Source of the DNA: Flammeovirgaceae bacterium 311
GTDB taxonomy: Bacteria; Bacteroidota; Bacteroidia; Cytophagales; Cyclobacteriaceae
DNA length: 64,000 bases
Reading direction: 5' to 3'
Assembly: GCA_000597885.1 (NCBI GenBank)
Contig: CP004371.1
Coordinates: 1,876,501-1,940,500 of the forward strand
The translations under genes were made by a program, and so were the position numbers. This document shows, in pieces, positions 44,744 through 64,000 of the stretch. Numbering within the stretch: position 1 is the first letter of the stretch; every line of letters begins with the position of its first letter. The notes under the pieces were generated by a model. That model did no database searches, was not told where the DNA came from, and was given only the letters and a program-made list of their open reading frames with translations.

Positions 44744-45958
44744 TTATTTTGTTTGCAGATAGATATCGGAAGATGGTTTGGCAGCTGTCAATGCAAAGGC
44801 CTTTTCATAGACTTGTGCAATGTGCCTCCTACCCCTATACTTAATCGCAAGTTCTTTATAATCAGATTTTGATACAGCCTCTACCACTTTCCTCATTTCT
44901 TTCAGCGCTGTTTGCACACTCTTCATTGTAAATAAAACTCCCCCTTTACCGGCCGCTATAATTTCAGTTTCATCACCAACACCTTCACTTAACATTACAG
45001 GCAGGCCAGCCGCCCAATATTCCCCAATTTTAATAGGCGATAAATATTTCTTTGAGGGTGAAGGACGGTACAGCGCATAAGCGAAATCTGCAGCATGGAG
45101 GTACAGGGGGATCTCATGATGAGGTTTACCATCCACAAAAAACTCATTCTCCTGAAAACCAACATCCATAAGTTTTTTCCGAATTTCTTCAGCTGGCTGG
45201 GGACTCAAAATGATCAAATGAAAATTTGGAATAAGCTGCCTGGATAATCTGAATATCTCAAAGGCTTCCTCATCATAATATAAGCCTCCAAACTTGCCAA
45301 CATAAATTCCACAGACAGCCTGATCTGCTAATCCCAATGCAGCTCTTACTTGCCGTCTGGTTGTTTCTCTGAACCCAAAGTAGTCGACATCGACTGTACA
45401 TGGCAATGTCATAAGTTTCTCCTCTGGCACCGCTTTGCTGATAAGTACAGATCGATACCCCTCAGCCACAGGCATAATCGCTGTAGCTGTTCTGAGTTGC
45501 GCCGACTCTCCAAAGTGTTCAATCAGGTAACGCAGATCCCACTTAGGCCAAACACCAGATTCCAGCATATAAGCAGCATGAGGTTCAAAGGATTCTACCC
45601 AGTATGGGATTTTTGTATATAGATGAACAAGATGACCAAGTATGCCTGCAGGAGCACCCCTACAAATCAAAAGATCAATATGCTCTTGTGCGATAATTGT
45701 ATTAAGCTTCTTCGGGAATAAGATGAAATCATTAACCTTATTAAGAATAACATTTTGTTGGGGAGGACTGTGCAGCGGTATATGTGAAACCTTCGGTAGC
45801 TGAATAGAAAATGCAGGTAGTGTTGACTCCCGCTCAATAGAGCAGTAGAAGATCCTGTCCACAAAAGGGAATGCAGCCAATACCTGCAAATGCGGATATA
45901 TGGTTGACACTGAAAGCCCTTCATTCGCACTCCAATATCCCAGAAAAAGAATTTTCAT
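44744..45958 (-). CDS. Glycosyltransferase (GT-B fold)
   Basis: I choose the ATG at 45958 (MKILFLGYWSANEGLSVST), giving 404 residues. It overlaps the upstream GT2 stop by 4 bp. The GT-B Rossmann features are CGIYVGKFGGLYYDEEAFEIFR, the HLHLIILSPQP-type strand, and PSKKYLSPIKIGEYWAAGLPVMLSEGVGDETEII. It is the last gene of the polysaccharide operon. Confidence 0.8.
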   Translation of the reverse strand: MKILFLGYWSANEGLSVSTIYPHLQVLAAFPFVDRIFYCSIERESTLPAFSIQLPKVSHIPLHSPPQQNVILNKVNDFILFPKKLNTIIAQEHIDLLICRGAPAGILGHLVHLYTKIPYWVESFEPHAAYMLESGVWPKWDLRYLIEHFGESAQLRTATAIMPVAEGYRSVLISKAVPEEKLMTLPCTVDVDYFGFRETTRRQVRAALGLADQAVCGIYVGKFGGLYYDEEAFEIFRLSRQLIPNFHLIILSPQPAEEIRKKLMDVGFQENEFFVDGKPHHEIPLYLHAADFAYALYRPSPSKKYLSPIKIGEYWAAGLPVMLSEGVGDETEIIAAGKGGVLFTMKSVQTALKEMRKVVEAVSKSDYKELAIKYRGRRHIAQVYEKAFALTAAKPSSDIYLQTK

Positions 45959-46773
45959 GGTAACGATATCAATGCATTGCAAGCTTTCAGGTACTGGCTT
46001 TTGCTTAGATATGAGAGCGCCATGATTTTCTTTATTTTCATCTTGAGATTGAATACAGGAATAAAACCTGATTCAGGCATTGACTTGACAGAAGCATATA
46101 ATATCCTGTATCCTTTGGCCAAACCATCCAAGTTAGACATAGCGGAAGAAGAACTCTTCCTGTAATACAACACACAGCTATTTGTAGCTTTATAATATCC
46201 TCCCTTTCTGGCTGCTTCTATATAAAAAAGCAGATCTTCTCCATGAGTCATGCCTTCCTTGAATGAGATATCATTTACAATATCAGCTTTCAACATCCAG
46301 GAGGGTCCAAAGAAACAATCTGGATTCAGTTGAATAAGCTGATCAAATACCTGACCCTCCCAGCTATGGTATTTATGATATAACACTTTATCAAGATTTC
46401 TGTCTCTTACTTCAACCATTCCATCTGCAAATGACAAATAAGGGTGTTCCAAAAACAAACTTACTCTATCAAGAATACTGTCAAACGGATACTCATCATC
46501 AGCATCAAGAAAACATATAAAATTACCTGTCGCATATGATAAACCTAAATTTCTAGCTGCAGAGACGCCTCTATTAGCCTGTTCATGGTATCTGATACGA
46601 GTGTCAGTATAATTTAAAACACATTGCCGAGTAGTATCTGTACTACCATCATTTATTATAATTAATTCCCAATGCGTGTAAGACTGATATATAACAGAAT
46701 TGATTGCCTTTTCAATGTAATTACTTGCATTGTAGGCGGGCATAATGATAGAAACAAGCAATTGTTTACTCAC
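45955..46773 (-). CDS. Family 2 glycosyltransferase
   Basis: I favour the GTG at 46773 (VSKQLLVSIIMPAYN) over upstream ATGs up to 46806, because it gives the usual start before VSIIMPAYN; the result is 272 residues. GT-A motifs are IIINDGSTDTT and FLDADDEYPFD. It is coupled to the following gene by a 4-bp overlap and to the sulfotransferase upstream by 8 bp. Confidence 0.87.
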   Translation of the reverse strand: MSKQLLVSIIMPAYNASNYIEKAINSVIYQSYTHWELIIINDGSTDTTRQCVLNYTDTRIRYHEQANRGVSAARNLGLSYATGNFICFLDADDEYPFDSILDRVSLFLEHPYLSFADGMVEVRDRNLDKVLYHKYHSWEGQVFDQLIQLNPDCFFGPSWMLKADIVNDISFKEGMTHGEDLLFYIEAARKGGYYKATNSCVLYYRKSSSSAMSNLDGLAKGYRILYASVKSMPESGFIPVFNLKMKIKKIMALSYLSKSQYLKACNALISLP

Positions 46774-47590
46774 TTTTGAAGCCCCATTTTGATACATCAA
46801 AATCATAAACTTTACTAAATTTCAACATATCATCTTTTAAAGCCTGATATATATATTCTCGTTCTATATCTGATAATCTTCTATTCTGTTCAGGAAATTT
46901 AAGCCTCATCAATTTTGCCCCTAGAAGTTTTATCGGTTTCGGAATGTAAGGCAGTATTTTATTATACCTAGACCGATATTCATTTATAACCCTATTCTCA
47001 TTAGCTGTCTCATTTGAAACAATAAATTTGTCAGGCATAAAATTTTTAGTTAATCCAATAAATTCAAATACATCGTAGAGCACCTGTTTAGGATGAGTTT
47101 TTAAATTATCAAAATCTAATAATAACAAATTTTCGCTAGGGAAATATATTCTAAACTGCTCAAGCTGTAAAAAATAATTACTAAGGTTCACCAAGTGTGA
47201 AGAATCAATCTTTATTTTAATAGAACCTTTCCTGACCATGAAATTGTAGTGTGATTCAATGCGATCGAAAGGATTTCTAACTATATAGATAAATTTAGGA
47301 TTGATACCATATTCAAAAATTTTCCTAGCAACGTTAGGCTCCATCGGATATTTTGTATAGCCAGTTGATGCTTCTAAAACATATTTATGCTTATTAGCAT
47401 TAAAATTAAAAAGTTTATCATAAACTTCTACATGATATCTATGCCCCTGATGTTCTGAAAAGAACTCTGGTTCTTTTGTTAAAGCGGGGCAAACCTGTGG
47501 GATAATTTTTAAATAATCAAATAAAGAACTAGTCCCGCACTTCATTGCACCAATGATCATTATATATGCATCTGAAGGAATTCTAGTCAT
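46766..47590 (-). CDS. PAPS-dependent sulfotransferase
   Basis: A 274-residue cytosolic sulfotransferase. The 5'-phosphosulfate loop is IGAMKCGTSSLFDYL near residues 12-27, and the 3'-phosphate site is IVRNPFDRIESHYN near residue 105. These match the heparan-sulfotransferase-like Sulfotransfer_1 family. It transfers sulfate from PAPS to a glycan hydroxyl. It is one of two sulfotransferases in the island. Confidence 0.88.
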   Translation of the reverse strand: MTRIPSDAYIMIIGAMKCGTSSLFDYLKIIPQVCPALTKEPEFFSEHQGHRYHVEVYDKLFNFNANKHKYVLEASTGYTKYPMEPNVARKIFEYGINPKFIYIVRNPFDRIESHYNFMVRKGSIKIKIDSSHLVNLSNYFLQLEQFRIYFPSENLLLLDFDNLKTHPKQVLYDVFEFIGLTKNFMPDKFIVSNETANENRVINEYRSRYNKILPYIPKPIKLLGAKLMRLKFPEQNRRLSDIEREYIYQALKDDMLKFSKVYDFDVSKWGFKSE

Positions 47591-47715
47591 TTTAAAAAAA
47601 TTGATTGATAAAAAGGATTATATAATTATTATGACCTTTTAGCAATATCTAGGCCACAAAGGAATATTAGTAGGTAAAATTCTATACAAAAGAAGATAAG
47701 AATGTTGATCAACAG

Positions 47716-48798
47716 TTATTCTCTTTCTGCCAAAGACATGCTTAACTCTCCCGCTTCCCCAGCCAATAAAAATAAATTCTTATCAGAGAGATTTTGTAAG
47801 TTTTCAATTTGTTGTATCACCGCGGAAGGAGATAAATTATTTTGATAGTACGAGAAAAGATTATTAGTAAAATCAGTAGTGTGAATCTCTCCTGAGAGTA
47901 TCATATTTATTTTTGAAATAAAATCATATTCATTCCCATCAAATGAAATGCATTCCACTAAGTGTTGAAGTTCTGGATTTAATAATTTATTATACTGCAG
48001 AACAGGAATTGTACCTGTATAAATGCACTCTATCAAGTTGTGGCAAAAAGGCATTCTTAATCCTACTGGACATAAACCAAAATCTGAATTGGAAAGGAAC
48101 GATATATATTCTTTTTTATCCAGCCAAAAATTACTGATATCTATTATACATATTGGTTTATCAGTACTATAAAGTTCATTTTTTGTTTTTGGAAAATGCA
48201 CATATTGGCTGAATTTACTCATTAAAATTTCAACCAATACCACTCTACTTAGATATACCTCATCAAAACATTTTATATTTTTGTAAATACCACTTAAATT
48301 ACCAGCAAAAACTAATTTAAATTTTCTGGTAATTACCTTTTCTAAATTTAAAGAGTCTAACTCTTTAAAATAAAACATAGGGTGCAAGCTAAATGGGACT
48401 TTATAGTTGTTACTCAGCAATTCTTCACTAATCGGATAATAATAGTTTGGTTTTAATGAAAGTCTGTTGTTATTTAAAAAAATAGTATCGGAGAAAATTT
48501 GGCTCTGATTCTTTTTGCTCCATAGAACAATCGAAACATATTTATTATAGGAAAGATCAAACCAATATTTATTTAAAATTGACCAAAATTCCCTATTAAG
48601 CACAATCCTAACATTGTAACCATTTTTTACAAAAAAAAGGATTAGACTAACGAGATATCTACTATAATCAGTTCTGATTAAAAAAGTCACTTTCTTCCTC
48701 CCCTCCCTTCTATTATAAAAAATATTTCTAACAAATCTTATAAAAGCCATTGTTTTTAGAAAAATGAAAAATAAATATTCAATAAGCTTATTTTTCAT
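47716..48798 (-). CDS. Putative exostosin-like glycosyltransferase
   Basis: A 360-residue protein. The C-terminal part has FLSNSDFGLCPVGLRMPFCHNLIECIYTGTIPVLQYN, which resembles the donor-site segment of exostosin-like (GT47-type) transferases. The N-terminus has a short hydrophobic run. The sequence is very AT-rich. The family call is tentative. The start overlaps the next gene by 11 bp. Confidence 0.5.
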   Translation of the reverse strand: MKNKLIEYLFFIFLKTMAFIRFVRNIFYNRREGRKKVTFLIRTDYSRYLVSLILFFVKNGYNVRIVLNREFWSILNKYWFDLSYNKYVSIVLWSKKNQSQIFSDTIFLNNNRLSLKPNYYYPISEELLSNNYKVPFSLHPMFYFKELDSLNLEKVITRKFKLVFAGNLSGIYKNIKCFDEVYLSRVVLVEILMSKFSQYVHFPKTKNELYSTDKPICIIDISNFWLDKKEYISFLSNSDFGLCPVGLRMPFCHNLIECIYTGTIPVLQYNKLLNPELQHLVECISFDGNEYDFISKINMILSGEIHTTDFTNNLFSYYQNNLSPSAVIQQIENLQNLSDKNLFLLAGEAGELSMSLAERE

Positions 48799-49897
48799 TT
48801 CTAATCTGTATTAGTTCTTGAATTTTTCTGATTTGCTCTGTATAAGTATTGTCTGCTGCAAAAGCCTTTCTTTTAGCAGCAGACAACTCACTAGAGGCGG
48901 AACCAATATTATCAATTACCCAACTAAATATTTTTAGAAAATCCTCCATGGATTTAGACATATAAAGCAAATCTTTATCAGCATACTCTTCGGTCCAGGT
49001 TGCGACAACTGGTTTACCTGAGGCTAGATATTCCATTATTTTATGTGGGCTAGCCTGATCATCGTAATTATCTTCCTTATATGACACAAGTAACAAATCA
49101 GCTGCTAACAAATAATACATAATTAGATCGGCAGGCACAGGTGGCATAAAATATGTGTTAGGCAGACTCTTTATTTCGTCTTTTGCCGAGCTGGTAATAA
49201 TAGATGTTGATAGATTACTTCTACCTTCAGGGCCAAGGAATAGAAAGTCTATATTTGCATGAGATCGTATTACAGTCAATAACTTTTCCCAATCCAAGAA
49301 CTGCATAGAAAGATTCCCTACATATAAAGCTTTTATTAAATTATTTCCTGGCAATTTGATCTGTCTATCTATGCCATTACCGAATTCATTCAGCCTCACT
49401 CCATGATGTATCTTATGAGTATTGATATTGAAGGGTAGTAATTTAGCTTTGATTAGTTCAGTGGTACAGAGGCAAATGTCTGCTGTTTTTGCTGCTGATT
49501 CTGTTTGAAAGTCTTGATTCAAATCAACAATGTGTAGAATTTTAATTACAGAAGCAGGTAAGGCAGAAAAGTCATAAAAAACTGAAGTATCAAAAGACCA
49601 AACAATATCAAAGTGCTTACAACTCAAGTGCTCTAACTTCTGATATCTATTAGCGATAAAATGTTTTTGAAGAAAATTTGGGTAATATCGCATCCCTTTT
49701 GGAAATCCGGGATAATTTAAAATAGATAAGTTATCAAACTTTGTTGATTCAATCGTATACCCTTTAGAAGGCGGATTAAGAAAATACACATAGTTACCTT
49801 GTGCAGCTAGTTCAGTGGCATAATGGTGCTTTGAAACAAAATACTCGCCCCAGGCCTCTGGAGAAATGATTAAAATATTTTTACCTATTAGCTTCAT
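48788..49897 (-). CDS. Glycosyltransferase (GT-B fold)
   Basis: I choose the ATG at 49897 (MKLIGKNILIISPEAWG), giving 369 residues. The GT-B features are ALYVGNLSMQFLDWEKLLTVI, FLFLGPEG, and the block DQASPHKIMEYLASGKPVVATWTEEYADK with the acceptor/donor loop. It overlaps the previous gene by 17 bp and the next by 11 bp, so it is inside a tightly packed operon. Confidence 0.8.
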   Translation of the reverse strand: MKLIGKNILIISPEAWGEYFVSKHHYATELAAQGNYVYFLNPPSKGYTIESTKFDNLSILNYPGFPKGMRYYPNFLQKHFIANRYQKLEHLSCKHFDIVWSFDTSVFYDFSALPASVIKILHIVDLNQDFQTESAAKTADICLCTTELIKAKLLPFNINTHKIHHGVRLNEFGNGIDRQIKLPGNNLIKALYVGNLSMQFLDWEKLLTVIRSHANIDFLFLGPEGRSNLSTSIITSSAKDEIKSLPNTYFMPPVPADLIMYYLLAADLLLVSYKEDNYDDQASPHKIMEYLASGKPVVATWTEEYADKDLLYMSKSMEDFLKIFSWVIDNIGSASSELSAAKRKAFAADNTYTEQIRKIQELIQIRNEK

Positions 49898-51026
49898 TAC
49901 AAAGTTCCTCCAAATAAGTATAATATTTCTCACCTACCGCTTTTGAACTAAATCTTGCCTTTGCATAATCAGCTATGGCAAGATTTTGATATTTAGAGTA
50001 GTTCTTCACTTCTTCAATTATAGCCTCAGCCCAACTTTGTCCTTGATTTATCAATCTTCCATTTGAAGAGTTAATAAATTCTGCAACAGCTGCCAAATTA
50101 GTCATTATCACAGGTGTACCACACATAAGGGCTTCTGCACAAACAACCGAAAAAGTTTCATAATCTGCAGAATGAATAAAGAGAAGGCAATTTTGCATTT
50201 CTTTTGCCACATCTTCTTTTTCTAATTTACCAAGTAAACTAATATTTCCAAGTAGATTATATTCTTCAACATAAGCAATGATTTCATCCCATAAAGGCCC
50301 ATATCCTGCTATACGTAATTGAGCATGTGGATAAACCTTTAACACCTCTCTAAATGCATTTAAAATAACAAATGGCTTTTTTATAGTACGCCAATAATTG
50401 ATCATAAAAAAAACCAACTTGTCCTTTTCTTTTTCTTTGTAGTAAAACAGTTGCTCATTAACTACATTAGGCACTACTGTGCAAGAGTGGTCAAAACATC
50501 CAGAAAACGTCTTTATGTCATTGCACAATGCTTTTGAAACAGTAATTATAGGTAATTCAGAAGAGAAAATTTTTTTGATTCTGTCTAACTTTGTTGTCGT
50601 TTCAGGTAAATTAAAATTGTAATGATATGCAGTCCAATGCTCAGTAACAACAATTGGAACTTTGATTATCTTCTTGAGAATGTTTATATGAGTAAGTAAT
50701 GGATATGCTATATGAACATTAATTAGGTTATACCTACTATTGATCTTATACTTAATTAGTACCCACACTAAAGTTTTTAAGTATAAGAATTCAATGATCC
50801 GCCATACTTTTATTTTCGTTAATATAATGTAAGCTTCTTCTGTAGGGCTTATTCTATACTTTACTAGTCTAAATACTGTATCTGGATTATATCTGATTTC
50901 AATATGTACCGTATCATTATGGCAATATTGCTGTAATGCAGAAATATGTTCCTGTATAAAAAGTGCTTCTTTATTTTCCCAACGATTAGGATACCAGTTT
51001 GCTATGTGCAATACTCTCATTTTCAA
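49881..51026 (-). CDS. Family 4 glycosyltransferase
   Basis: A 381-residue GT4. The N-terminal MRVLHIANWYPNRWENKEALFIQEHI and later FSVVCAEALMCGTPVIMTN with the EX7E pair support the call. A second ATG at 51020 is the likelier start, as the first two residues add nothing. It overlaps the upstream GT4 by about 35-41 bp. Confidence 0.85.
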   Translation of the reverse strand: MKMRVLHIANWYPNRWENKEALFIQEHISALQQYCHNDTVHIEIRYNPDTVFRLVKYRISPTEEAYIILTKIKVWRIIEFLYLKTLVWVLIKYKINSRYNLINVHIAYPLLTHINILKKIIKVPIVVTEHWTAYHYNFNLPETTTKLDRIKKIFSSELPIITVSKALCNDIKTFSGCFDHSCTVVPNVVNEQLFYYKEKEKDKLVFFMINYWRTIKKPFVILNAFREVLKVYPHAQLRIAGYGPLWDEIIAYVEEYNLLGNISLLGKLEKEDVAKEMQNCLLFIHSADYETFSVVCAEALMCGTPVIMTNLAAVAEFINSSNGRLINQGQSWAEAIIEEVKNYSKYQNLAIADYAKARFSSKAVGEKYYTYLEELCNEANR

Positions 51027-52146
51027 CCAATTTCAGGATAAACTCGAAATAATCCTTTGTTACTTTTTCCCATGTAAATTCTTTCTGGGCATAGTGATAG
51101 CTTTTCTCCCTCAGGTCTAGAGTTAGTTCTTGATCATTTAGAACATTCTTCAAAGCCAAATATAATCGTTCTACTGTTATGTCAGCTACTAGAACTCCAC
51201 GTTCAGAATCAATAGCTTCACTTACTCCTCCTACGTCTGAGGCTACCACAAGCAACTTGCAAAACATGGCTTCAACCACAACCATGGGAAAAGCCTCAGT
51301 GGTCAGAGAAGGAAGACACAAAATAGTATGCTGATTGAATACTGCAGGCAATTCTGTATCATGTTCTAAATAGCCAAGACATATAACCCTCCCTTGCTCT
51401 ATATTTTTAATCTTCTGAAAGAGCGACTTTTCAAAAGGAGTTTGTAATTCTGTTTTACCATAATGGCCTGCACCTACTATAGTTAATGTCAAACCTGGAA
51501 AATCTTGTAGCAATAACTGAAATGCATCTATCAATAAATGAACACCTTTTCCCTCAACTAATCTACCCACATATAAAAGCGAAGATTTCTTGATTTCTGA
51601 TGCAGGTTTAAATAAGCTAGGATTTACACCATTATAAATGACTTTGGTTTTATTATAGAGAGAATCACTCAGTGGCCTATATTTTTGAGCTACTTTTTCA
51701 CTACATGAAATTACTGCATCAATGGCTCTGTCTAATTCAATAATATATCTTTCACTAAAAAAGTGGATCCTTTCATTATGAACATGAAGAATTATTATAC
51801 CATTAAACCCAAGTTTACGCAACACTACAGCATACTCCGGCCTATTTTGTATATGTACAACTTTGCAGTCTCTAATCAATTTATAATGAGACAAACAATA
51901 AAGATATATTTTGAAAGAGGGTGATATTTTAGTGAATTTTCCTAGCAGTGAATATATACCCCTAGCGGGGGTTATGATATCTAATGTTCGTTCAAAATCA
52001 TTTTTAGTATTTTTTACTAAGATCTTGTATTTAATATCTATACTGATATTCCGGCTTATAACTTCATATACCCACCTTACTACTGGTCCTCCCTCTATAG
52101 CGCTAAAAACCGATTCCTCAGGAAGCAACATGGCTATCTTAAACAT
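50986..52146 (-). CDS. Family 4 glycosyltransferase
   Basis: A 386-residue GT4. Motifs are LLYVGRLVEGKGVHLLIDAF, LTIVGAGHYGK, and LPSLTTEAFPMVVVEAMFCKLLVVASDVGG. It overlaps the sulfotransferase gene upstream by 8 bp. Confidence 0.87.
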   Translation of the reverse strand: MFKIAMLLPEESVFSAIEGGPVVRWVYEVISRNISIDIKYKILVKNTKNDFERTLDIITPARGIYSLLGKFTKISPSFKIYLYCLSHYKLIRDCKVVHIQNRPEYAVVLRKLGFNGIIILHVHNERIHFFSERYIIELDRAIDAVISCSEKVAQKYRPLSDSLYNKTKVIYNGVNPSLFKPASEIKKSSLLYVGRLVEGKGVHLLIDAFQLLLQDFPGLTLTIVGAGHYGKTELQTPFEKSLFQKIKNIEQGRVICLGYLEHDTELPAVFNQHTILCLPSLTTEAFPMVVVEAMFCKLLVVASDVGGVSEAIDSERGVLVADITVERLYLALKNVLNDQELTLDLREKSYHYAQKEFTWEKVTKDYFEFILKLVENESIAHSKLVS

Positions 52147-53050
52147 CTAGTGGATAATTATAAATTTTTAAATACTTTTGAGTACGTGTTGAAATATAGG
52201 AAATCTCTTCTCTAGTAAGCTCTGACTTCCACTTGTTTACTTCATTTGAAGTAATAGGATTATTAAGCTTTTTATGATGAGGTTTTATATCATCGCCTAA
52301 TAATATTTTTTTATCTTCAAAGAACTGTTCAGTGAAATTCATCTCCAGGTAAATGGAAATCAGTTCAAGCGTACTTTTGGGATCATTAACTAAATCCTCA
52401 TACTTTACCTCTAAAAGGGAAAGTCGCTTTTTATATTTAAAAACTTCTTTTACTGACCAGACCCATCTATTTACTGCGTACTCTAGTGATTCATTTAAAG
52501 TGCTTTTTCTAGAATTAACAACAGCTCTGCTGTCTCTAACTAGATGTATAATCTTAGCGCCTGGGAATAAAGTTTTTAGCCATTCAAGCCTTAGAACCAG
52601 GTATGGTGTTTTATCTCCTATCAATGTAGCATTTGGACTGTTAAGCATTTGATGATATTTATAAACACCTAAAATAAGATTTTGAAGTGTTCTTTCACTC
52701 TCCTGAATATTTAGAAGATATCCTTTTAGTGCCTCCGAATCCAAATTCCAATATCTAAAGTCATTGCTGGTATAAACCAGAGCAACAATACTATTTACTA
52801 TCACATACCAGCCTTTTTTCCTATGCTGGAAATATTGCTGGCTTGCCTGAACAATAAAATCACCTGTCTCTGGTGGTATGTGAACTACTCCAGAATTCAT
52901 CAAAAGCTTTCTAAGTAAGGTCGTCCCACTTCGGCCACAGGAAACAATAAAAAAAAAGTTTAATGGTCTTGAGGCTTTTTTGGAAAAATAAGCCCTTTGA
53001 ACAATAAACTTCTCATTCAATTTATTATAATAATATTTCACATTCCTCAT
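52139..53050 (-). CDS. PAPS-dependent sulfotransferase (Sulfotransfer_3 type)
   Basis: A 303-residue protein. The 5'-phosphosulfate loop is FIVSCGRSGTTLLRKLL (about residues 33-49) and the 3'-phosphate site is KIIHLVRDSRAVVNSRKS. It is coupled to both neighbours by overlaps of 8 and 4 bp. Substrate unknown, but a glycan is implied by context. Confidence 0.85.
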   Translation of the reverse strand: MRNVKYYYNKLNEKFIVQRAYFSKKASRPLNFFFIVSCGRSGTTLLRKLLMNSGVVHIPPETGDFIVQASQQYFQHRKKGWYVIVNSIVALVYTSNDFRYWNLDSEALKGYLLNIQESERTLQNLILGVYKYHQMLNSPNATLIGDKTPYLVLRLEWLKTLFPGAKIIHLVRDSRAVVNSRKSTLNESLEYAVNRWVWSVKEVFKYKKRLSLLEVKYEDLVNDPKSTLELISIYLEMNFTEQFFEDKKILLGDDIKPHHKKLNNPITSNEVNKWKSELTREEISYISTRTQKYLKIYNYPLDV

Positions 53051-54021
53051 CTTATTCCGGCCTTACTCACTACAAACTTTTTCAATATGTAGAGAAAATC
53101 CTTATAAAAAGATTTCTCCTGTACTGGATTGTAAAAAAGAATGCTACCCATCGTTTTCAAGGAATGCAAATATTTTCCGTGATAACTAAACCATAAGGCT
53201 AGTTTTTTTTGAGGTAACTTTTGATCGAAAATATATTTTTCAATTTGTTTTACTTTATTTAAACCTTTATCTGAAAACAAATCTTCTCCAGTACTAATTT
53301 CGTGCCTTAGTATTTCTTTTACGATATAGGTAGATGCTAATTTCCTAAGGTTAGTATTCCTATATGATGTAAATGAATCGGGATTGTTTCTATAATAAAA
53401 ATGAATCTCTGGTAAATTGATCAATTTATGTCGCAGCGCAATCTTTGCACACCAATAATAATCATCACTCCCAATTCTATCAAAATACTCTTCCAGCAGC
53501 CCCACATCCTCTACTACTTCTTTTTTTACCATTATTGAAGTTGGCCAAAAAGAAAAATCCTCAGGCAATTTATCTCTGATAGATTGATAATTTGTTGGAT
53601 AAGATGATACATTGGAAAGGTATTCTCCAGTACTACTAATCCTTTGATATTGTACACCACATGCTCCTAATTCTCTATCAGCTGCAAAAGCAGCTAATTG
53701 TTTCTCTAATTTGAATCGAGAATAAACATCATCTGCATCCTGAAAAGCAATATAATCACCCTTTGCCAGCCTCATCAGCCTATTTCGGGATCTCAAAAAT
53801 CCTATATTAATCTCATTGTTAAAGATTTTAATCCGGTCATCCTTATATCCTTCTATAACATGTTTTGTATTATCAGTGGATTTATCATCTAAAATGATTA
53901 ATTCAAAATTTTCATAAGTCTGGTTTAGAACACTTTCTATAGCCTCTTTGATAAACCTTTCAGTATTATAAGCAGGAAGCAAGACAGAAACCAGAGGCTT
54001 GTATTCACTAACTTTTAACAT
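53047..54021 (-). CDS. Family 2 glycosyltransferase
   Basis: A 324-residue GT-A enzyme. VSVLLPAYNTERFIKEAI, LIILDDKSTDNTKHV and YIAFQDADDVYSR carry the nucleotide-binding and DXD features. It overlaps the sulfotransferase by 4 bp. Confidence 0.88.
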   Translation of the reverse strand: MLKVSEYKPLVSVLLPAYNTERFIKEAIESVLNQTYENFELIILDDKSTDNTKHVIEGYKDDRIKIFNNEINIGFLRSRNRLMRLAKGDYIAFQDADDVYSRFKLEKQLAAFAADRELGACGVQYQRISSTGEYLSNVSSYPTNYQSIRDKLPEDFSFWPTSIMVKKEVVEDVGLLEEYFDRIGSDDYYWCAKIALRHKLINLPEIHFYYRNNPDSFTSYRNTNLRKLASTYIVKEILRHEISTGEDLFSDKGLNKVKQIEKYIFDQKLPQKKLALWFSYHGKYLHSLKTMGSILFYNPVQEKSFYKDFLYILKKFVVSKAGIR

Positions 54022-55112: not shown

Positions 55113-55167
55113 TTATATAAATTGATTGCAATTCTATTAAAAGATTATATATGTCATTTATCACATT

Positions 55168-56289: not shown

Positions 56290-56354
56290 TTAACGTAAAA
56301 ACTAGACTTAAAAAAACAATTTCTTTCACTTATGTAGTATAATGATTCGGCTCT

Positions 56355-57128
56355 GGTCTAAAATGTATGATAGTTTCTATTTTGTAAAATCAGCTTCATT
56401 TGTAGCTCATGGTTTCGTTGCTTTTTAGAGAAACAGGTGGTTTTTCTAACCAGCCTTCTATTTCTCGCCCTAAGGCTGGTATTTACCCCCTTAATGTGTT
56501 TAGTTCCTAATTTTCCAATCAGATGCTTTTCAGCGGGTAGCTCAGCAGAGAAGGCTTTCCAGTCATCGGTATAGAATAGTTGAATGTTAAGTTCATCAAG
56601 CTGCTTATAGAGCCGTTCTACTGTTTTTATACTTCTGTCTTCCTACTGCCAAGCCAGCACCTCATCAGTGTTAGGGGCATAAGCGTAAAGGAGCCATTGC
56701 TTGTTCTTTTTTGCTGCCTACAAAGCTATAAAGCTCATCTATCTGCACCAGGTCATAGCTGCTTTGCTAATGCTTGAAGCTAAGCTGACTGGCCTTTTCT
56801 TCCAAAATCCTGATGCTGGTCTTACGATGTACTCCAGCAATAAACTCAATGTCTCTAAGCCCACAGTTCTTGTTGAGCATCTTAATCACAAACCTTTTTA
56901 CCTCTAGTGAGCAACCTTTATAGGTGTATTCCCTTTGAAACTGTTTTCTACATTTGGAGCATCGCAGCGGCGAACCGCAGAAAATTCTGCCTACCATTCC
57001 GCTTTCGCCCATTTTTCCATACCTTACTACTTTGGCAATAGGGGCAGATGATTTGGATATTTAAGTCGCACATAACCTCCTCAACATCCCCCTATTGCTT
57101 TTTATTCAACTCTCATACATTCTCTACC
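56355..57128 (-). mobile_element. Decayed IS1-family insertion sequence
   Basis: Inverted ends match at 17 of 21 positions (56355-56375 and 57108-57128) and begin with GGT, as in IS1. The total length of 774 bp is close to IS1 (768 bp). No clear target-site duplication is visible. The transposase inside is broken in several places. Confidence 0.8.
56358..57073 (-). pseudogene. IS1-family transposase, multiply disrupted
   Basis: The InsA-like part begins at 57073 (MCDLNIQIICPYCQSSK, a zinc-finger start) and is interrupted by a 13-bp insertion at 56968-56980 in which cgcag is repeated on both sides of 8 bp. The InsB-like part follows in other frames with DELYSFVGSKK, YTDDWKAFSAELP and GVNTSLRARNRRLVRKT. 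These are recognisable as the DDE-type core of IS1. Frameshifts and a stop near 56645 prevent a full product. Confidence 0.75.
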
Positions 57129-57229
57129 ACTGCCGGCAGGAATTATAATTTTAATATACTTGAGATACGTACTGATTATGCAACATCATCCAAGTAAATT
57201 TTCAACATTATAAAATTCAATAATTCTGT

Positions 57230-58135
57230 CTATTCTTTCCAACCGTGAGGATCGCCTAGTTTATGCTTTCCAACATACGGCTGCAAATCCCAATACATAG
57301 GGGCATTATTTAATTTTTCATCCTTTGATTTCAAAATGCACAAGCCGACAGCTCCAAGATCCATGGCATGTGAAAATTCTTTTCTCTTGCTAAGAATGTC
57401 CCATGCATCACGCATATCATATGACCAAGAAATATCGTCAAATAGAACAACAGCTCCAGGGCTTAAAAAAGGAATTAGTTTATTTAGATAATGAATGGTA
57501 GCGATTTTTTCATGGTGTCCATCTATATAAGCCAAATCAATTTTTTTATTTAGAGAAGGAAGTTCTTGATGGAGTGCATCATCAAAAAGAGCATTGACAA
57601 CCTTAACGTTTTTGTGTGATTTCAGACTCTCCTTAGCAATATTAGCCAAGGCCTCTGATCCTTCCACTGTGATGAATTTATCCATACTAGGCGCTGAAGA
57701 AATATAGAGAGATGATATCCCTGCACAAGTACCGAGTTCAATACCTATCGATGATTTAAATTCTCTTGCAATCAAATAAAGGGCAGTAGCCCATTTTTGA
57801 TTTTTTCCTGTCGCGGCTACACGTTCCATTGTGAATTCTAAAACTTCACCTGGTTGAGGTCTAGCACCAGCACTAGTGTCACTGCCCGCACTTGAAGGTT
57901 TAGGAGAGTACCATATCGGTACTTTTTTGTCGCCCCCTTTTGCTATTTCATTTCGACGAGTTTCAGCAAGTACAGCAACAGCTTTTGCCTGATCATCTAT
58001 CTCACCATTAATCAAAAAAGCTAATACAGGTTTCATCTGCGTGGGTAATCCTAGACTGAATATGTATGAAATATCCTTTTTACTTGAATTATCTACTGCA
58101 GAATTAAAAAATTTATTGAATAGTTTTTTAAACAT
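57230..58135 (-). CDS. Class I SAM-dependent methyltransferase (Methyltransf_24 type)
   Basis: A 301-residue protein. SAM motifs are IGIELGTCAGISSLYIS near residue 130, ITVEGSE, and LAYIDGHHEKIATIHYL followed by LSPGAVVLFDDISW. Its place in the island suggests methylation of a glycan. It is 202 bp from the nitroreductase-like gene. Confidence 0.85.
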   Translation of the reverse strand: MFKKLFNKFFNSAVDNSSKKDISYIFSLGLPTQMKPVLAFLINGEIDDQAKAVAVLAETRRNEIAKGGDKKVPIWYSPKPSSAGSDTSAGARPQPGEVLEFTMERVAATGKNQKWATALYLIAREFKSSIGIELGTCAGISSLYISSAPSMDKFITVEGSEALANIAKESLKSHKNVKVVNALFDDALHQELPSLNKKIDLAYIDGHHEKIATIHYLNKLIPFLSPGAVVLFDDISWSYDMRDAWDILSKRKEFSHAMDLGAVGLCILKSKDEKLNNAPMYWDLQPYVGKHKLGDPHGWKE

Positions 58136-58337
58136 TACCCTTTGTCTTTAATTATACATTAGTAAGTTAGTAACAAGAAGTTGATACTAGATAAAATACT
58201 TTAAAATTAATTTATTTTTCAAATTCTTAATATAAATCAATCTTTTCCAGTTCTGTCAATATTCTCTAATTTAATGAAGCAACAGCTCATTTTCTTTAAT
58301 TGCAAGTCATTAGTTTTATTAGTTTATACCCTTAGAA

Positions 58338-59411
58338 TTAGAACATTTTATGAACTCCATCTACAGACTTCTTTTGAGAAAATGGAATCTTTCCTTCTTC
58401 TAAAGGAAATCCAATTGAGATAAACATTATACAACGCTCATGGGGCGATAAACTTAAAAACTTATCTAATTTCTTTTCTCTTTCTTCTATATCTGGCCAA
58501 TTAATTGGACAGGATGATAATCCTAGAGTTTCAAGTGCAAACATAAAACTCATGGCTGCCAAACCTCCATCTATATAAATAACATGCCTATCCCTCTCAT
58601 CAAAATATGCAGTTAAGTCACCGATCAAAATAGCAATCATAGGAATATTATGAGCAAATGAAGTCGCCCCCATTGGCAAAAAACCAGCCATCTTTAGTTT
58701 TTCAGGATCATCGATAAAAATAAATCTAAACGGCTGCCTGTTACATGCACTAGGCGAGTATAAAGCAGCAGTAATTGCTTGCTTTATCAGTACATGTGGA
58801 ACTTTTACCTGCTCATACCAACGCACTGAACGTCTTTGCTGACAGAGTCTTAAAAATTCCTCAAACTCAATATTACTTTTTACACTAGTTTTTCGTTCAT
58901 ATGGCAGATAAGGAGATGTTGAAATGAAAGAATTAAGAGGTAAATTACTATTACATTGATTATATCTTTCTTTAGCTCTTTCTATGACATCATGGGATTC
59001 TACAACACTAAAATACTCTTGAAGTACATCTTTTGCCCATTTGATGGTATCAACTTCACTAGAACCTGCAGATACTTTTTCGTAAGCAGATATAGTTTCT
59101 TCAATATAATCAAGAGCAAAAATATTCTTCAATGGAATTGAAATTAGACCTTTCTCAATTCTATGAATATTACGACGAAGTGTAGCATCATCAGATGTGC
59201 TACCTTGTTCTTTTTTCAAATGAATTAGCTTACCCCTTAATACACTATAGTGCTCTCTATCAAATTTATCACTAAATAAAAAATAGTAAAAAGAACTTTT
59301 ACGTGGAGATTGCGAAGCCCAAGTCAAGATCTTATCATTTTCAAAAATTTGTTTTTTGAGCTTGTTATATCTCCAAAGTAAACTTTGTTTTATATCTAAA
59401 AAGAGTCCCAT
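58338..59411 (-). CDS. Nitroreductase-family protein with long N-terminal extension
   Basis: A 357-residue protein. The C-terminal half (about 185-357) is a nitroreductase fold: RRSVRWYEQVKVPHVLIKQAITAALYSPSACNRQPFRF is the FMN-binding start and LGLSSCPINWPDIEEREKK the later helix. The first about 185 residues show a helical region with no match that I recognise. It is 3 bp from the ABC ATPase and probably co-transcribed. The role in polysaccharide synthesis is unknown. Confidence 0.8.
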   Translation of the reverse strand: MGLFLDIKQSLLWRYNKLKKQIFENDKILTWASQSPRKSSFYYFLFSDKFDREHYSVLRGKLIHLKKEQGSTSDDATLRRNIHRIEKGLISIPLKNIFALDYIEETISAYEKVSAGSSEVDTIKWAKDVLQEYFSVVESHDVIERAKERYNQCNSNLPLNSFISTSPYLPYERKTSVKSNIEFEEFLRLCQQRRSVRWYEQVKVPHVLIKQAITAALYSPSACNRQPFRFIFIDDPEKLKMAGFLPMGATSFAHNIPMIAILIGDLTAYFDERDRHVIYIDGGLAAMSFMFALETLGLSSCPINWPDIEEREKKLDKFLSLSPHERCIMFISIGFPLEEGKIPFSQKKSVDGVHKMF

Positions 59412-59414
59412 ATA

Positions 59415-60683
59415 CTATACGACAGCCCAATTTTGTTCTACTAACACTTTAGAACCTTCAGGATTTGGTACTCTACCATTTCCGTAAAAATCCCCACTTT
59501 CAACTATCAACTTCATTGCATTTTCTATTCTTTGATATGGCTGACCATTTAGATGCAATGAGATATTGATATAATATGAACCCGCCACCAAAGGAAACCT
59601 TGGGATTGTACAGATAACCTCTCCATGTGATTCAGTTATAAATGTATCAAACCCACCATAGATTGAACCCAAATGGAGAATTTTTTCACCGTAACTATTA
59701 TAAATTCCAATATGTAGTGCACATTTCAGACCTAATTCCTTTGCCTTATATTCAAAAGAAAAAGTAACATCTTTTCCAGACATTACTTCTCTATCATAAG
59801 CTCCAGAAGAAATTACATTTGCAGATTCAATCCATACAAGAAAAGTTGATTTAACAAACTTATTTTTATAAAATAATGAATTATTATTCTGATTTAATGA
59901 TAAATATTTACCTACAATTTCAGAAATTTCTCCATCAGTGTTTAAGCCACCGTTTGATAATAAAATCCCTCTTGTACATAATGCTTGAATTGATGCCATA
60001 TTATGGCTTACAAAAATCACAGTCCTTCCTCCACCTTGTGCTACATCTTGCATTTTACCAACTGCCTTTTTTTGAAACTCGGCATCCCCAACTGCCAAAA
60101 CCTCATCAACAATTAAAATTTCAGGTTCTAAATGAGCGGCAACTGCAAATCCAAGCCTTACTCTCATACCTGATGAATACCGCTTTACCGGAGTATCTAT
60201 ATAGCGTTCTGTACCGGAAAAATCAATTATTTCATCTAACCTAGAACGAATCTCAGCTTTGGTCATGCCCATTATAGAACCATTCAGGAAAATATTTTCC
60301 CGCCCTGTCAGTTCCTCATGAAAGCCTGTGCCTACCTCCAGCAATGAAGCAATTCTTCCTTTTGACCTAATTCTTCCAGTAGTTGGGGAAGTGACCCGGG
60401 AGAGTAATTTAAGAAGAGTAGACTTACCAGCACCATTTTTACCGATGATCCCCAGTACCTCACCTCTCTTTACCTCAAAATTAATATCCCTAATCGCCCA
60501 TACGTAATCGCTATTACCCTTAGTAGCCCGGTCATTGACCTCACCCACTTTCAGGTAGGGATCTTCCAGACCTCTTACTTTATGCCACCAGCGGTTTAGG
60601 TCATGAGAAAGTGTACCAGTTCCTAACTCTCCTAACCTATACTGTTTGGATAGATTCTCAACCTTTATGACAGTATCAGACAT
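59415..60683 (-). CDS. Wzt-like ABC transporter ATPase with C-terminal glycan-binding-like domain
   Basis: A 422-residue ATPase. Walker A is GIIGKNGAGKSTLL, the signature is YSSGMRVRLGFAVA, and Walker B is EILIVDEVLAVGD. After about residue 250 the sequence continues in a beta-rich extension (SFEYKAKELGLKCALHIGIYN), as in Wzt proteins whose C-terminal domain selects the finished O-antigen. It works with the permease 61 bp upstream. Confidence 0.93.
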   Translation of the reverse strand: MSDTVIKVENLSKQYRLGELGTGTLSHDLNRWWHKVRGLEDPYLKVGEVNDRATKGNSDYVWAIRDINFEVKRGEVLGIIGKNGAGKSTLLKLLSRVTSPTTGRIRSKGRIASLLEVGTGFHEELTGRENIFLNGSIMGMTKAEIRSRLDEIIDFSGTERYIDTPVKRYSSGMRVRLGFAVAAHLEPEILIVDEVLAVGDAEFQKKAVGKMQDVAQGGGRTVIFVSHNMASIQALCTRGILLSNGGLNTDGEISEIVGKYLSLNQNNNSLFYKNKFVKSTFLVWIESANVISSGAYDREVMSGKDVTFSFEYKAKELGLKCALHIGIYNSYGEKILHLGSIYGGFDTFITESHGEVICTIPRFPLVAGSYYINISLHLNGQPYQRIENAMKLIVESGDFYGNGRVPNPEGSKVLVEQNWAVV

Positions 60684-60744
60684 GCTTAAATCTAATCAAA
60701 TTGCTTTTGTACCTTGACTTCCGTTTAGTTAGTAACAGAAATTC

Positions 60745-61644
60745 TCATACAGTATCCATAAATGTACGTTGTACTTTATTGAATATAATTAACCCTAAAA
60801 AGAAAATCACCACTGTAAAAGCAGTTGAATAGCCTATATACCCCCAGGAAAAAGTGCCCTGGCTTATAAAAGCAAAACGGAAAGTTTCAATAATACCTGA
60901 TACTGGATTAGCCAATATAATCAACTTATATTTTTCAGGAAGAGAAGATATGGGATAAATAACTGGAGAGGCGTACATCGCTAATTGAACACCAAAAGCA
61001 ACCAAAAACTGCAGGTCACGGTATTTAGTAGTCATAGATGATATAATCATACCACCTCCCAAACCCATCAGCGCCATCAAAGCCACCAGGTATGGCACCA
61101 ACAGAATATAAAGATTAGGCCGTATATCTGCACCCTGCACATAGTAATAACCTAATAATAGGAGGAACAGTAGAAACTGAACACCAAATTTCAAAAGGTT
61201 TGATATTACTACAGATAAAGGAGTTATAAATCTCGGGAAATATACTTTACCAAAAATATTAGCATTTTTAGTAAAAGTAGTTGAAGTATCAGTGAGACAG
61301 GTTGAAAAATAATTCCAACCGATAATACCTGCCAAATAAAATAGTGCGGGAGGAATACCCTCTGTGGTAATACCCGCTACATTACTAAAAACGAAGGTAA
61401 AGATAATAGTAGTGAACACAGGTTGAATAAAAAACCAGATAGGCCCTAAAATGGTTTGCTTGAAAGTTGCAACAAAATCCCTTTTAACAAACATTTGAAG
61501 CAGGTCGCGATATTGCCACACTTCCTTTAGTTGCAAATCAAATAGTGAGGTACTTGGCTGAATATCAAGCGTCCATCCCTCATCTCCATCTTCCTTTTCA
61601 GCCTGTTTTGCTGGATACTCCAGCAAGGCTTTATCGTCCTGCAT
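60745..61644 (-). CDS. Wzm-like ABC-2 type permease
   Basis: A 299-residue membrane protein. A 40-residue cytoplasmic N-terminus precedes LQMFVKRDFVATFKQTILGPIWFFIQP, the usual start of polysaccharide exporter permeases. Six hydrophobic helices follow. It exports the completed glycan across the inner membrane. It is the first gene of the operon. Confidence 0.93.
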   Translation of the reverse strand: MQDDKALLEYPAKQAEKEDGDEGWTLDIQPSTSLFDLQLKEVWQYRDLLQMFVKRDFVATFKQTILGPIWFFIQPVFTTIIFTFVFSNVAGITTEGIPPALFYLAGIIGWNYFSTCLTDTSTTFTKNANIFGKVYFPRFITPLSVVISNLLKFGVQFLLFLLLLGYYYVQGADIRPNLYILLVPYLVALMALMGLGGGMIISSMTTKYRDLQFLVAFGVQLAMYASPVIYPISSLPEKYKLIILANPVSGIIETFRFAFISQGTFSWGYIGYSTAFTVVIFFLGLIIFNKVQRTFMDTV

Positions 61645-62077
61645 GTTGGTGGTTCTTTTTTTCCAATTTCAAATTTAGTGCTTTCTTCAAAATAAATAAC
61701 ACTATAGCAAAAAGTATTGGATGAACAGCCTTGTTGCAAGCTGAGTATGAGGAATCAACATTTCTTAGTTTGCAATGAATTGTTATCCGACCTCACATAT
61801 GACTTTTAATAAAAGAAGCAACATATGGAAATGCTTATGCTGTTTCTTTCATTTATACTCATGTAGCTTGCTTCTTCCCTATAATTTCAGGAGTAACAAC
61901 AATATAATTTTTAGATATTCATCCCCGCCCCAACAGTCTCATGCTTAAAATAATGAATCAGAATTCACGAACCTGTTGAGCGGTTGCAGTTGTAGCTGTC
62001 TAAGAAAAGAGGTCCTGTAGTGTGCAGCTAATATGGCAAATTTAATTGATTTCCAGGTTAAGAAATTCATTTATCCT
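61645..62077. other. Intergenic region upstream of the exporter operon
   Basis: AT-rich, about 430 bp, and the likely site of the main promoter for the polysaccharide operon, although I cannot point to a perfect -33/-7 pair. No gene. Confidence 0.4.
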
Positions 62078-63055
62078 TCACCAATAGCACCCCTCTTCGA
62101 CCACCATGAAATTATCAGGATAGTCTATCTGAAGTGGTTTTATCCAATGTTTGTTGAACAGCTTACTGATGGTTTCATGGCTTTCCCAGCGAGCTCCCCT
62201 GATGCCAAACAGTATTTGCAGAGCGCCACCCATATGCACAGCTTGCTTCCCCATGAGCTTTACAAAACTGGCTAATGGCATTCCATAGGCACCACAACCC
62301 ATCAATGCTATATCAAACTTTTCCTTGGCTACTGCTTCCTTCATATACTCCAGGGCCTCAAACCAATCCTTGAAGTTCACTTTGTTATGGGCAATGCTTT
62401 GTACGGCCTTGATGATTGTTAGATCGAACTGGGGCAATATTCTTTTATCAGAAAAAAGCAGTGCTCTTTTCTGATACTGGTGCCTGATACTCTCTTCGAA
62501 GGGATGAATCACCAACACTTTTTTCCCTTCCAGCACCTGGCTCCAGGGACGGGGGTGGTAATAAGGTTCCAGGTCCCGCAGCCTCACCTTCTTTGCATTT
62601 TTCAACTCCTCCTTAAATAGATTTTCCTCTGCACGCCAGGAACCAAGGATATCTATTTGCTCCATTTCCGCCAGCATCAATTCGCTAAACTTCTCAAAAT
62701 TTCTGACGTTGGGAGGGAAAAAGCCTGCGTTACGGGGCATATCTTCAAAGGTAAACCTGCTCCATCCAATCGAATCTATCTCTCCCTTGATATATTTTAA
62801 GCTGTTTTCAAAATTTGGCTGTGTCAGGTACTCATACACACACTGTATCTCTACAGCACCAAAGCGACTGATCATGGCAGGTTTATCAGACGACAAGGTT
62901 TTCATAATTAAATCTGAAGCTTCCTGACCTGCGAAGTCCATAATCGGAAGATGGGTAGTAGTACTCCCTTGAGGTGCTAATAAGGCATTTGCTTTTCTAA
63001 TAATATTAAGTATGCTTGTTATACCTCTATTCATGCAGTAGAGATTTACGCCCAA
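62078..63055 (-). CDS. GT-D fold-like protein
   Basis: A 325-residue protein. SRFGAVEIQCVYEYL (about residues 64-78), LRDLEPYYHPRPW and VLVIHPFEESIRHQYQKRA are marks of a GT-D-like (DUF1792-related) glycosyltransferase family. MGCGAYGMPLASFVKLMGKQAVHMGGALQILFG near the end is also conserved in these proteins. It is transcribed with the exporter but 430 bp upstream. The ATG at 63034 is an alternative start. Confidence 0.65.
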   Translation of the reverse strand: MGVNLYCMNRGITSILNIIRKANALLAPQGSTTTHLPIMDFAGQEASDLIMKTLSSDKPAMISRFGAVEIQCVYEYLTQPNFENSLKYIKGEIDSIGWSRFTFEDMPRNAGFFPPNVRNFEKFSELMLAEMEQIDILGSWRAEENLFKEELKNAKKVRLRDLEPYYHPRPWSQVLEGKKVLVIHPFEESIRHQYQKRALLFSDKRILPQFDLTIIKAVQSIAHNKVNFKDWFEALEYMKEAVAKEKFDIALMGCGAYGMPLASFVKLMGKQAVHMGGALQILFGIRGARWESHETISKLFNKHWIKPLQIDYPDNFMVVEEGCYW

Positions 63056-63429
63056 TGATTGAACGAAATGAGTTATTCCTGATTTTTTTTCAGAAGTGCC
63101 TGTTCACCAATATAAACGAAAGCTGCCAGGTAATTAAAAGACTGATTCACTGCGCTATAATTTAGCCTGGCGTACAGGTAATTTATATGTTTTCCCAAAA
63201 AACCATGTGAAATGATATTTTATAACTCAATCACTTCTGCTGAAAATTAATCGTTCAGGTTCTGCGGTCCATTGCACAACTTGTGGTGGATACTCTTGCA
63301 AATGTTCATGAGTATGCTGACTATTACGGTCAAATTTTTCAACTCTGGCGTTATTACAAATTCTATCCAGACAGATGTTGATGTTTACATTATAGCGCAT
63401 CTCAAGAACAGTTTATTTTCAGGCTTAGC
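63056..63429. other. Intergenic region
   Basis: About 370 bp, AT-rich, no gene and no clear regulatory signal. Confidence 0.4.
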
Positions 63430-64000
63430 TCAAAATTTGTTGTTCTTATTTTTGTAAACATTTAAGGCCCCTATTTTGATAAGAAAAACAAAATCATCTT
63501 CTAAGCTGGCACCGAAAAAGCTCGGCGGTATCCCCTCCTTATCTATGTAATATTTAAATTGTCCGCTTTGTACATGCTTATGCAAAGATGCATAACTAAA
63601 AACTTTTTTTGCAAATAAGCCTTGTTCTCCAAACACAACTTCGTCTTGGGGAAAAAGCGCATTGAACGGAAATCTTAATCTTAGACTTCTTTCAGGGCTG
63701 TAAAAATAATCTTCGCCTATTTCCGCTTCTAAGAAAGCAATAATTCCATTTTCTGCAGATTCTTTTTCACCTGGCAAAATAATTCCGGCGATCATTTCAG
63801 AAGCTGCTACAAAATCTTTATGATATCGGTATACATGTAACATCATAACTGATGTACTATATATTAACACCACCCATGTTGATAATGCTATGGCTAGTTT
63901 TCTCACCCCACTACTTTTGATTTTGGTTGTAACATAACCAAACATGATCAATGAAATAGTAAACCAGTCTAACAGATAATGCTCCGCGGATCCCTGCTTC
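63430..64000 (-). CDS. Membrane protein, 5' end cut by window edge
   Basis: The frame continues without a stop from 63430 to the edge of the window, so the gene starts beyond it. At least 189 residues are visible. Two hydrophobic segments (LLDWFTISLIMFGYV and LAIALSTWVVLIYSTSVMML) precede a soluble C-terminal part of about 130 residues with no recognised motif. It may be the tail of a larger multi-helix envelope protein, possibly part of the same glycan locus. Confidence 0.6.
   Translation of the reverse strand, partial: KQGSAEHYLLDWFTISLIMFGYVTTKIKSSGVRKLAIALSTWVVLIYSTSVMMLHVYRYHKDFVAASEMIAGIILPGEKESAENGIIAFLEAEIGEDYFYSPERSLRLRFPFNALFPQDEVVFGEQGLFAKKVFSYASLHKHVQSGQFKYYIDKEGIPPSFFGASLEDDFVFLIKIGALNVYKNKNNKF

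Follow-up and report, generated by a model that had tools for sequence, protein, structure and literature searches.

A predicted cassette for a sulfated, exported glycan beside the PAPS synthesis genes of Flammeovirgaceae bacterium 311

The window analysed here is a stretch of 64,000 nucleotides (positions 1876501-1940500) of the single-contig genome of Flammeovirgaceae bacterium 311 (6,665,617 bases), and its subject is a surface-polysaccharide island at window positions 44744-63055 on the minus strand, with a G+C content of 35% against 48-49% around it. Nine glycosyltransferase-like (GT) genes, two sulfotransferase genes of the type using 3'-phosphoadenosine 5'-phosphosulfate (PAPS), here named ST1 and ST2, and genes for a pyruvyltransferase-family protein, a methyltransferase, a nitroreductase-family protein and the exporter subunits Wzm and Wzt were identified in this region. 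A preliminary description, made from the DNA sequence alone, had listed two PAPS sulfotransferases, a pyruvyltransferase, a methyltransferase, GT2 and GT4 enzymes and Wzm/Wzt, all of which were recovered by Pfam searches; it made no mention of the nitroreductase-family gene (58338-59411) or of a GT-D-like gene (62078-63055). The lower G+C content that it reported was also confirmed, being 0.347 over 44744-63999 versus 0.485 in the remainder of the window. Fifteen of the 19 one-kb island blocks have a G+C content under that of the lowest flank block (flank blocks average 0.494). The 16 complete island genes range from 0.28 to 0.44, with third-position values (GC3) of 0.21-0.37 save in the GT-D-like gene, which has the highest values (G+C 0.436, GC3 0.485).

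With every island gene on the minus strand, the direction of transcription is towards lower coordinates. The upstream part comprises genes for a PMT_2 membrane glycosyltransferase (3' part at 63430-64000; L010:1930-3429, PF13231, E 5.7e-09), the GT-D-like glycosyltransferase (62078-63055; PF22882, 23 bits, below the cut-off of 27), the "type A" exporter permease Wzm (60745-61644; PF01061, E 1.7e-19), the exporter ATPase Wzt (59415-60683; PF00005, E 1.2e-22), the nitroreductase-family protein (58338-59411; PF00881, E 1.7e-23) and an S-adenosylmethionine-dependent methyltransferase (57230-58135; Methyltransf_24, PF13578, E 1.6e-15), and ends in a decayed IS1-like insertion (56290-57229), in which an InsA N-terminal fragment was recognized (PF03811, E 1.5e-05, 25 bits against a cut-off of 26.1). 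After this relic come the genes for the polysaccharide pyruvyltransferase family protein (55168-56289; PS_pyruv_trans, PF04230, E 2.9e-28), two GT2 enzymes (54042-55112 and 53047-54021; PF00535, E 1.2e-32 and 1.1e-37), ST2 (52139-53050), two GT4 enzymes (50986-52146 and 49881-51026; PF00534, E 2.3e-31 and 5.5e-25), a GT4-like protein with weak similarity to TuaH (48788-49933; PF13692, 22.2 bits, below the cut-off of 27; NF047676, E 3.2e-12, also below cut-off), a GT47/exostosin-like protein (47716-48798), ST1 (46766-47590), a further GT2 enzyme (45955-46806; PF00535, E 9e-34) and, as the last island gene, a GT4 enzyme (44744-45982; PF00534, E 2.6e-07). The exostosin-like assignment, already made in the preliminary description, is weak, since PF03016 scores 20.6 bits against a cut-off of 33.4. 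The extent proposed there, 44744-64000, does correspond to a real island, but position 64000 is not its end: the PMT_2 gene extends to genome position 1941429 (about window position 64929), and G+C content rises at the cysN gene.

Over 44744-56289 the 11 distal genes leave little space between them, no gap exceeding 125 bases. Packing is tightest over 44744-55112, with gaps of 20 and 125 bases and overlaps of 4-53 bases, lengths based on the longest open reading frames (ORFs), of which several have TTG or GTG starts that were possibly called too far upstream. Upstream of 55112 the packing is looser, with gaps of 55, 940, 202, 3, 61, 433 and 374 bases. The view that overlaps of 4-41 bp join the genes into one unit is therefore supported only in part, best for 44744-55112 and less for the upstream part, with its insertion relic and gaps of 202-433 bases. 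A terminator scan within the island gave 11 candidates versus 10.8 expected; no minus-strand candidate among them falls between genes. Four diverged copies of the IS1-like relic (69-77% over 639-797 bases) are present in the genome, and three further places match short stretches of it. No tRNA was found in the window, and a repeat search over window positions 44100-64000, the island's other edge lying outside, gave nothing resembling a recombination site. About 190 N-terminal residues of the nitroreductase-family protein (58338-59411), encoded between Wzt and the methyltransferase, match no family.

ST1 (PF00685, E 1.1e-14; Protein Data Bank matches 3rnl and 3-OST-5, 3bd9) was aligned with 3rnl and heparan sulfate sulfotransferases, the aligned motifs being GAMKCGTSSL (residues 14-23), KEPEFF (39-44) and YIVRNPFDRIESHY (102-115). 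The Glu of KEPEFF, aligned to a Glu of 3-OST-5, is presumably the catalytic base. ST2 (Sulfotransfer_3, PF13469, E 2.5e-25; weak NoeE similarity, 36 bits, below the cut-off of that model) was aligned with polyketide-synthase (CurM) and tyrosylprotein sulfotransferases through SCGRSGTTLLR (37-47), IPPETGDF (58-65) and HLVRDSRAVVNSRKS (169-183). Judged from these sequence alignments with solved enzymes, both proteins retain the PAPS-site motifs, namely the 5'-phosphosulfate loop and the 3'-phosphate motif (ST1, 14-23 and 102-115; ST2, 37-47 and 169-183). It is unlikely that the glycan is exported unsulfated and that the two proteins are inactive or act on a lipid, a small molecule or a protein. 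In favour of such a reading, lipids and proteins are sulfated by members of related families, polyketide and tyrosylprotein enzymes are the relatives of ST2 with solved structures, and a Bacteroides sulfotransferase encoded beside PAPS genes is described as sulfating cholesterol (PMC9417993). The ST1 and ST2 genes, however, are embedded among closely spaced glycosyltransferase genes, with their reading frames open and their PAPS-site motifs intact, and the named solved relatives of ST1 are heparan sulfate sulfotransferases.

Beyond the window end, one gene (PMT_2) later, cysN, cysD and cysC were found on the island strand, with cysQ divergent. Each of the four products scores over a curated NCBIfam cut-off, and cysC, at C1:1944007, is the single match to the adenosine 5'-phosphosulfate (APS) kinase family in the genome. 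These genes make and recycle PAPS; the preliminary description had suggested looking for PAPS synthesis genes in the genome, and they lie directly at the island's edge. Together with the PAPS-site residues of ST1 and ST2 they favour its prediction of an exported glycan that would carry sulfate. Downstream of cysN lies a terminator-like hairpin of 14 pairs and a T run; the scan overall gave 10 such sites versus 7.3 expected, and the weight of this one comes only from its strength and place. Because of this hairpin the PAPS genes probably form a transcription unit of their own, separate from the island, and a single operon of both was rejected. Elsewhere in the genome a sulfite-reductase-like ORF (723 aa), which from its sequence we take to be sulfite reductase, adjoins a cysH gene, and a second CysH is encoded as well. 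Both CysH proteins contain a CC...CxxC pair, which we assume to mark iron-sulfur APS reductases; if so, cysteine synthesis would not need CysC. Some iron-sulfur APS reductases accept PAPS too.

The same site was compared in three relatives: Cesiribacter sp. SM1 (G001), of the same genus, a member of another genus (G029) and Cesiribacteraceae bacterium YIM B00369 (G059; locus L082). The order in G001 is cysQ, cysC-cysD-cysN, a GT-D gene, Wzm, Wzt, variable genes, Lrp, phosphoribosyltransferase, histidine kinase and panB, which matches the window genome except for the PMT_2 gene and the variable part; the GT-D-like gene has its 59% identical counterpart in the same place. The variable part of G001 encodes a DegT aminotransferase, a PglD-like protein, FkbM and another methyltransferase, two epimerases, a GT11-like protein and other glycosyltransferases. 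In G029, cysCDN is followed by Wzm, Wzt, glycosyltransferase genes, a pyruvyltransferase-family gene and two ORFs that match no Pfam family; one gene of this G029 island is 52% identical to the last gene of the window island (44744-45982). In L082, cysCDN, one unassigned ORF, Wzm and Wzt are accompanied by counterparts of two glycosyltransferases of the window, at 38% and 45% identity, the latter value being that for the GT4-like protein at 48788-49933. A search of the whole G001 genome with both sulfotransferase families gave matches on contigs C41 and C93 only and none on C73, which holds the island at the cysCDN site. The sulfotransferase matches of G029 are likewise all on contigs other than that of its cysCDN-site island, and the sole Sulfotransfer_3 match of G059 is on a contig other than that of L082 (Sulfotransfer_1 was not searched there). 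The nearness of cysCDN was consequently rejected as proof of sulfation.

The three relatives share one type of Wzm at cysCDN, which is 34-35% identical to the window Wzm and for which no match was found in the window genome. The window Wzm is 62-65% identical to Wzm proteins encoded away from the cysCDN site in G001, in G059 and in the window genome itself. Since the Wzm types at cysCDN differ, we infer that a cassette of another type took over the site in the lineage of the window genome, and the island looks like the replacement of another glycan island at a variable surface-glycan site. The acquisition first proposed from base composition thus gains support from the relatives as well. The closest relatives of ST1 and ST2 in the G001 stretches compared are only about 26% identical to them. 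A second ABC-exported glycan cluster with two Wzt genes, running towards the contig end, was observed on contig C41 of G001 (L132:6090-12831); its Wzm and one Wzt are 61-62% and 56% identical to those of the window, and a Sulfotransfer_3 gene stands directly after that Wzt.

With a Wzm permease and a Wzt ATPase encoded beside glycosyltransferases, the island has the composition of a cluster dependent on an ATP-binding cassette (ABC) transporter. Wzt carries a C-terminal carbohydrate-binding domain, Wzt_C (PF14524, E 1e-09, 39 bits versus a cut-off of 30.4). The pyruvyltransferase-family protein scores 100 bits with PF04230 (cut-off 25.3), and the cut-offs of the curated CsaB (57.7 bits) and WcaK models are not reached; membership of this family suggests that the glycan may carry pyruvate. 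No match to the KpsC/KpsS family was found in the genome by a search that was positive in the E. coli control, and a Kps-type capsule was rejected for that reason. The Wzy_C/ligase family has three matches, two of them over cut-off. Because of these two results an O-antigen-like chain is favoured as the predicted product, with moderate confidence. A capsule or a protein-linked glycan of the S-layer type is a possible, if less expected, product: CsaB is the best NCBIfam model for the pyruvyltransferase-family protein, though below cut-off, and Wzm matches galactan-exporter and KpsM models, again below cut-off, but the lack of a KpsC/KpsS match and the Wzt_C domain on Wzt speak for the O-antigen-like chain.

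The island is probably a surface-polysaccharide cassette whose genes predict a sulfated, exported glycan, swapped in at a variable locus next to the PAPS genes. In the cytoplasm, enzymes of the GT2, GT4 and related kinds would assemble a heteropolysaccharide on a lipid carrier, ST1 and ST2 would transfer sulfate from PAPS to two different positions, the pyruvyltransferase-family protein would add a pyruvate ketal, and the methyltransferase would add a methyl group, possibly the cap. PAPS would be provided by the adjoining CysD, CysN and CysC, and its by-product 3'-phosphoadenosine 5'-phosphate (PAP) cleared by CysQ. The completed chain, recognized by Wzt_C, would be exported by Wzm/Wzt and attached to an anchor at the surface, an O-antigen-like chain being the most likely form. 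PAPS and phosphoenolpyruvate are cytoplasmic donors, and Wzt_C would recognize the finished or capped chain. Sulfation and pyruvylation prior to export would therefore fit the Wzm/Wzt route, by which fully assembled lipid-linked chains are exported (PMC6379404).

The relation between cysC and sulfotransferases was surveyed in 59 genomes of the order Cytophagales, with statistics that treat genomes without regard to shared ancestry. CysC was matched in 41 genomes, Sulfotransfer_3 in 36 and Sulfotransfer_1 also in 36 (34 over cut-off). CysC and Sulfotransfer_3 occur together in 33 genomes, CysC only in eight, the sulfotransferase only in three and neither in 15 (Fisher P 5.7e-6; size-stratified permutation, P 3e-5). 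The corresponding counts are 28, 4, 1 and 4 in the family of the window genome (P 0.005) and 5, 4, 2 and 11 in the other families (P 0.07). One discordant genome, G045, assembled as one contig, has eight Sulfotransfer_3 matches, yet no APS kinase was found in it by protein or family search. The other two, G033 and G047, have short partial APS kinase matches (23.5 and 25.3 bits, cut-off 21.1) in ORFs of 442 and 459 aa; three genomes with a full CysC (G017, G035 and G040) have a second match of the same partial kind (ORFs of 444-447 aa), and these matches were therefore read as another protein and the two genomes kept as discordant. Counting them as CysC would change the table to 35, 8, 1 and 15. 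Of the 33 genomes that contain both, five (G000, G022, G025, G032 and G034) have a sulfotransferase no more than 25 kb from cysC, against 1.1-2.0 expected under uniform placement (P 0.004-0.04, depending on how copies are counted), the limit having been set after the data were seen and broken contigs concealing linked cases. A flippase-family gene directly precedes the linked sulfotransferase gene in G032 and G025.

Similar neighbourhoods were noted at named loci as well. In the Saprospiraceae bin MAG-131 (G061), sulfotransferase domains are encoded on the same contig as cysC, about 9-11 kb beyond it, where a 618-aa open frame (G061:C95:19240-20823) contains two sulfotransferase matches. In Alistipes a weak sulfotransferase match (30-33 bits with a seven-sequence model) directly follows cysN in five of six loci (L101, L102, L104, L110 and L111; ORFs of 370-398 aa), reminiscent of BT_0416 of Bacteroides, and the sixth locus ends before that place. 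A 46% relative of the island GT-D-like protein is encoded in Maribellus sediminis (L106:15478-16461), about 5 kb after cysC.

Several observations weigh against the proposed sulfated product or the part given to the PAPS genes in it. The cysCDN-site islands of G001 and G029 have no sulfotransferase match, so that proximity of PAPS genes does not of itself imply sulfation by the island. Among 14 named control genomes 11 have an APS kinase and two a Sulfotransfer_3 match, with no tie between them, and cysC accordingly does not track sulfotransferases in bacteria generally. Three further sulfotransferases of the genome (190159, 6558787 and 107925), each with a 78-91% identical relative in G001, would draw on PAPS too. 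NF002537, a model named phosphoadenylyl-sulfate reductase, is passed by both CysH proteins (225.5 and 213.5 bits, cut-off 154), and the likewise named TIGR00434 by one of them; neither protein reaches the dedicated models for APS (TIGR02055) and PAPS (TIGR02057) reductases. NF002537 presumably covers both reductase types, and the curated models leave the choice between APS and PAPS undecided and are partly contrary to an APS reductase. Single-sequence structure models were unusable (mean predicted local distance difference test, pLDDT, 36 for ST1 and 31 for ST2), the Pfam family profiles being over cut-off for both proteins. No nucleotide-sugar synthesis gene was recognized in the island, and the insertion relic may have lowered expression of the distal genes.

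Several of these points favour a reading in which cysCDN are ordinary sulfate-assimilation genes whose place beside the island is incidental, namely the same position of cysCDN beside islands without a sulfotransferase match, the name of the model passed by both CysH proteins and the control genomes, to which the hairpin dividing cysCDN from the island and the eight of 41 cysC genomes without a Sulfotransfer_3 match may be added. This reading is given serious thought but held to be the less probable one, as cysC does track sulfotransferases across the order, 18 of the 59 genomes have no CysC match and both CysH proteins have the CC...CxxC pair. It is moreover compatible with a cassette for a sulfated glycan, since ST1 and ST2 could draw on PAPS in that case too.

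Bacteroidota are commonly regarded as degraders rather than makers of sulfated polysaccharides, and one metagenome study reports that a sulfotransferase gene was lacking in all its Bacteroidetes bins (PMC9723792). No sulfated surface-glycan cluster described in Bacteroidota was found in the open-licence literature searched, in keeping with the earlier remark that such glycans are rarely described in this phylum, but the genes themselves are common, as the Sulfotransfer_3 counts above show. The present Bacteroidota genome has a gene set fit for the synthesis and export of a sulfated glycan. If the glycan is sulfated, bacteria of this kind would contribute to the pool of sulfated polymers, their surface would have an unusual charge (affecting metal and water binding and phage contact), and such islands would be a source of new carbohydrate sulfotransferases. 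It may be speculated, as a rather doubtful extension, that the synthesis of sulfated surface glycans is widespread in Cytophagales and perhaps in Bacteroidota at large, that cysC mainly feeds glycan sulfation in this order, and that the cysCDN site of Cesiribacteraceae is a docking place exchanging whole exported-glycan cassettes, where one bearing sulfotransferases comes to lie beside the supply of its donor.

The island was compared with known systems as far as these are described in the sources cited. In Synechocystis PCC 6803 the xss cluster for synechan, which was shown to contain sulfate, also has two sulfotransferases, with eight glycosyltransferases; unlike the island it follows the Wzx/Wzy route, is plasmid-borne and belongs to a cyanobacterium (PMC8205485). 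The BT_0411-BT_0416 genes of Bacteroides likewise place PAPS genes next to a sulfotransferase in Bacteroidota, but the substrate is cholesterol and no glycan cluster is noted in that account (PMC9417993). The wbsalmo O-antigen cluster of Aeromonas salmonicida shares Wzm/Wzt and has an ORF with a sulfotransferase domain next to wzt; unlike in the island, the sulfotransferase role is putative and no PAPS genes are noted in that description (PMC4483657). Closer are two capsule systems. The capsule of Cobetia marina KMM 1449 is ABC-exported and sulfated, with minor nuclear magnetic resonance signals of a pyruvate ketal, and its clusters hold cysN/cysC, cysD, cysQ and sulfotransferase, pyruvyltransferase and glycosyltransferase genes (PMC11766843). 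The capsule cluster of Vibrio sp. KMM 8419 combines an ABC exporter, cysN, cysD, cysC and sulfotransferases, a combination of PAPS genes and sulfotransferases that its authors regard as a hallmark of sulfated polysaccharide synthesis, and a strain of the same species has no sulfotransferase gene in the differing region (PMC11641403). The island has PAPS genes beside the cluster in the same manner, yet in relatives such genes also adjoin islands free of sulfotransferases. In Cobetia the exporter belongs to Kps group III and is accompanied by KpsS/KpsC and wcb genes, and Vibrio has a Kps exporter with cys genes that are second copies, whereas the island belongs to a member of the Bacteroidota, has Wzm/Wzt with Wzt_C and no KpsC/KpsS match, and neighbours the only cysC match of its genome. 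Judged by its genes, the island works like the Cobetia and Vibrio clusters but stands outside their capsule group, KpsC/KpsS being absent; what is new relative to them is the other phylum, the lack of Kps genes and the placement at a probable exchange site next to the one cysC match of the genome.

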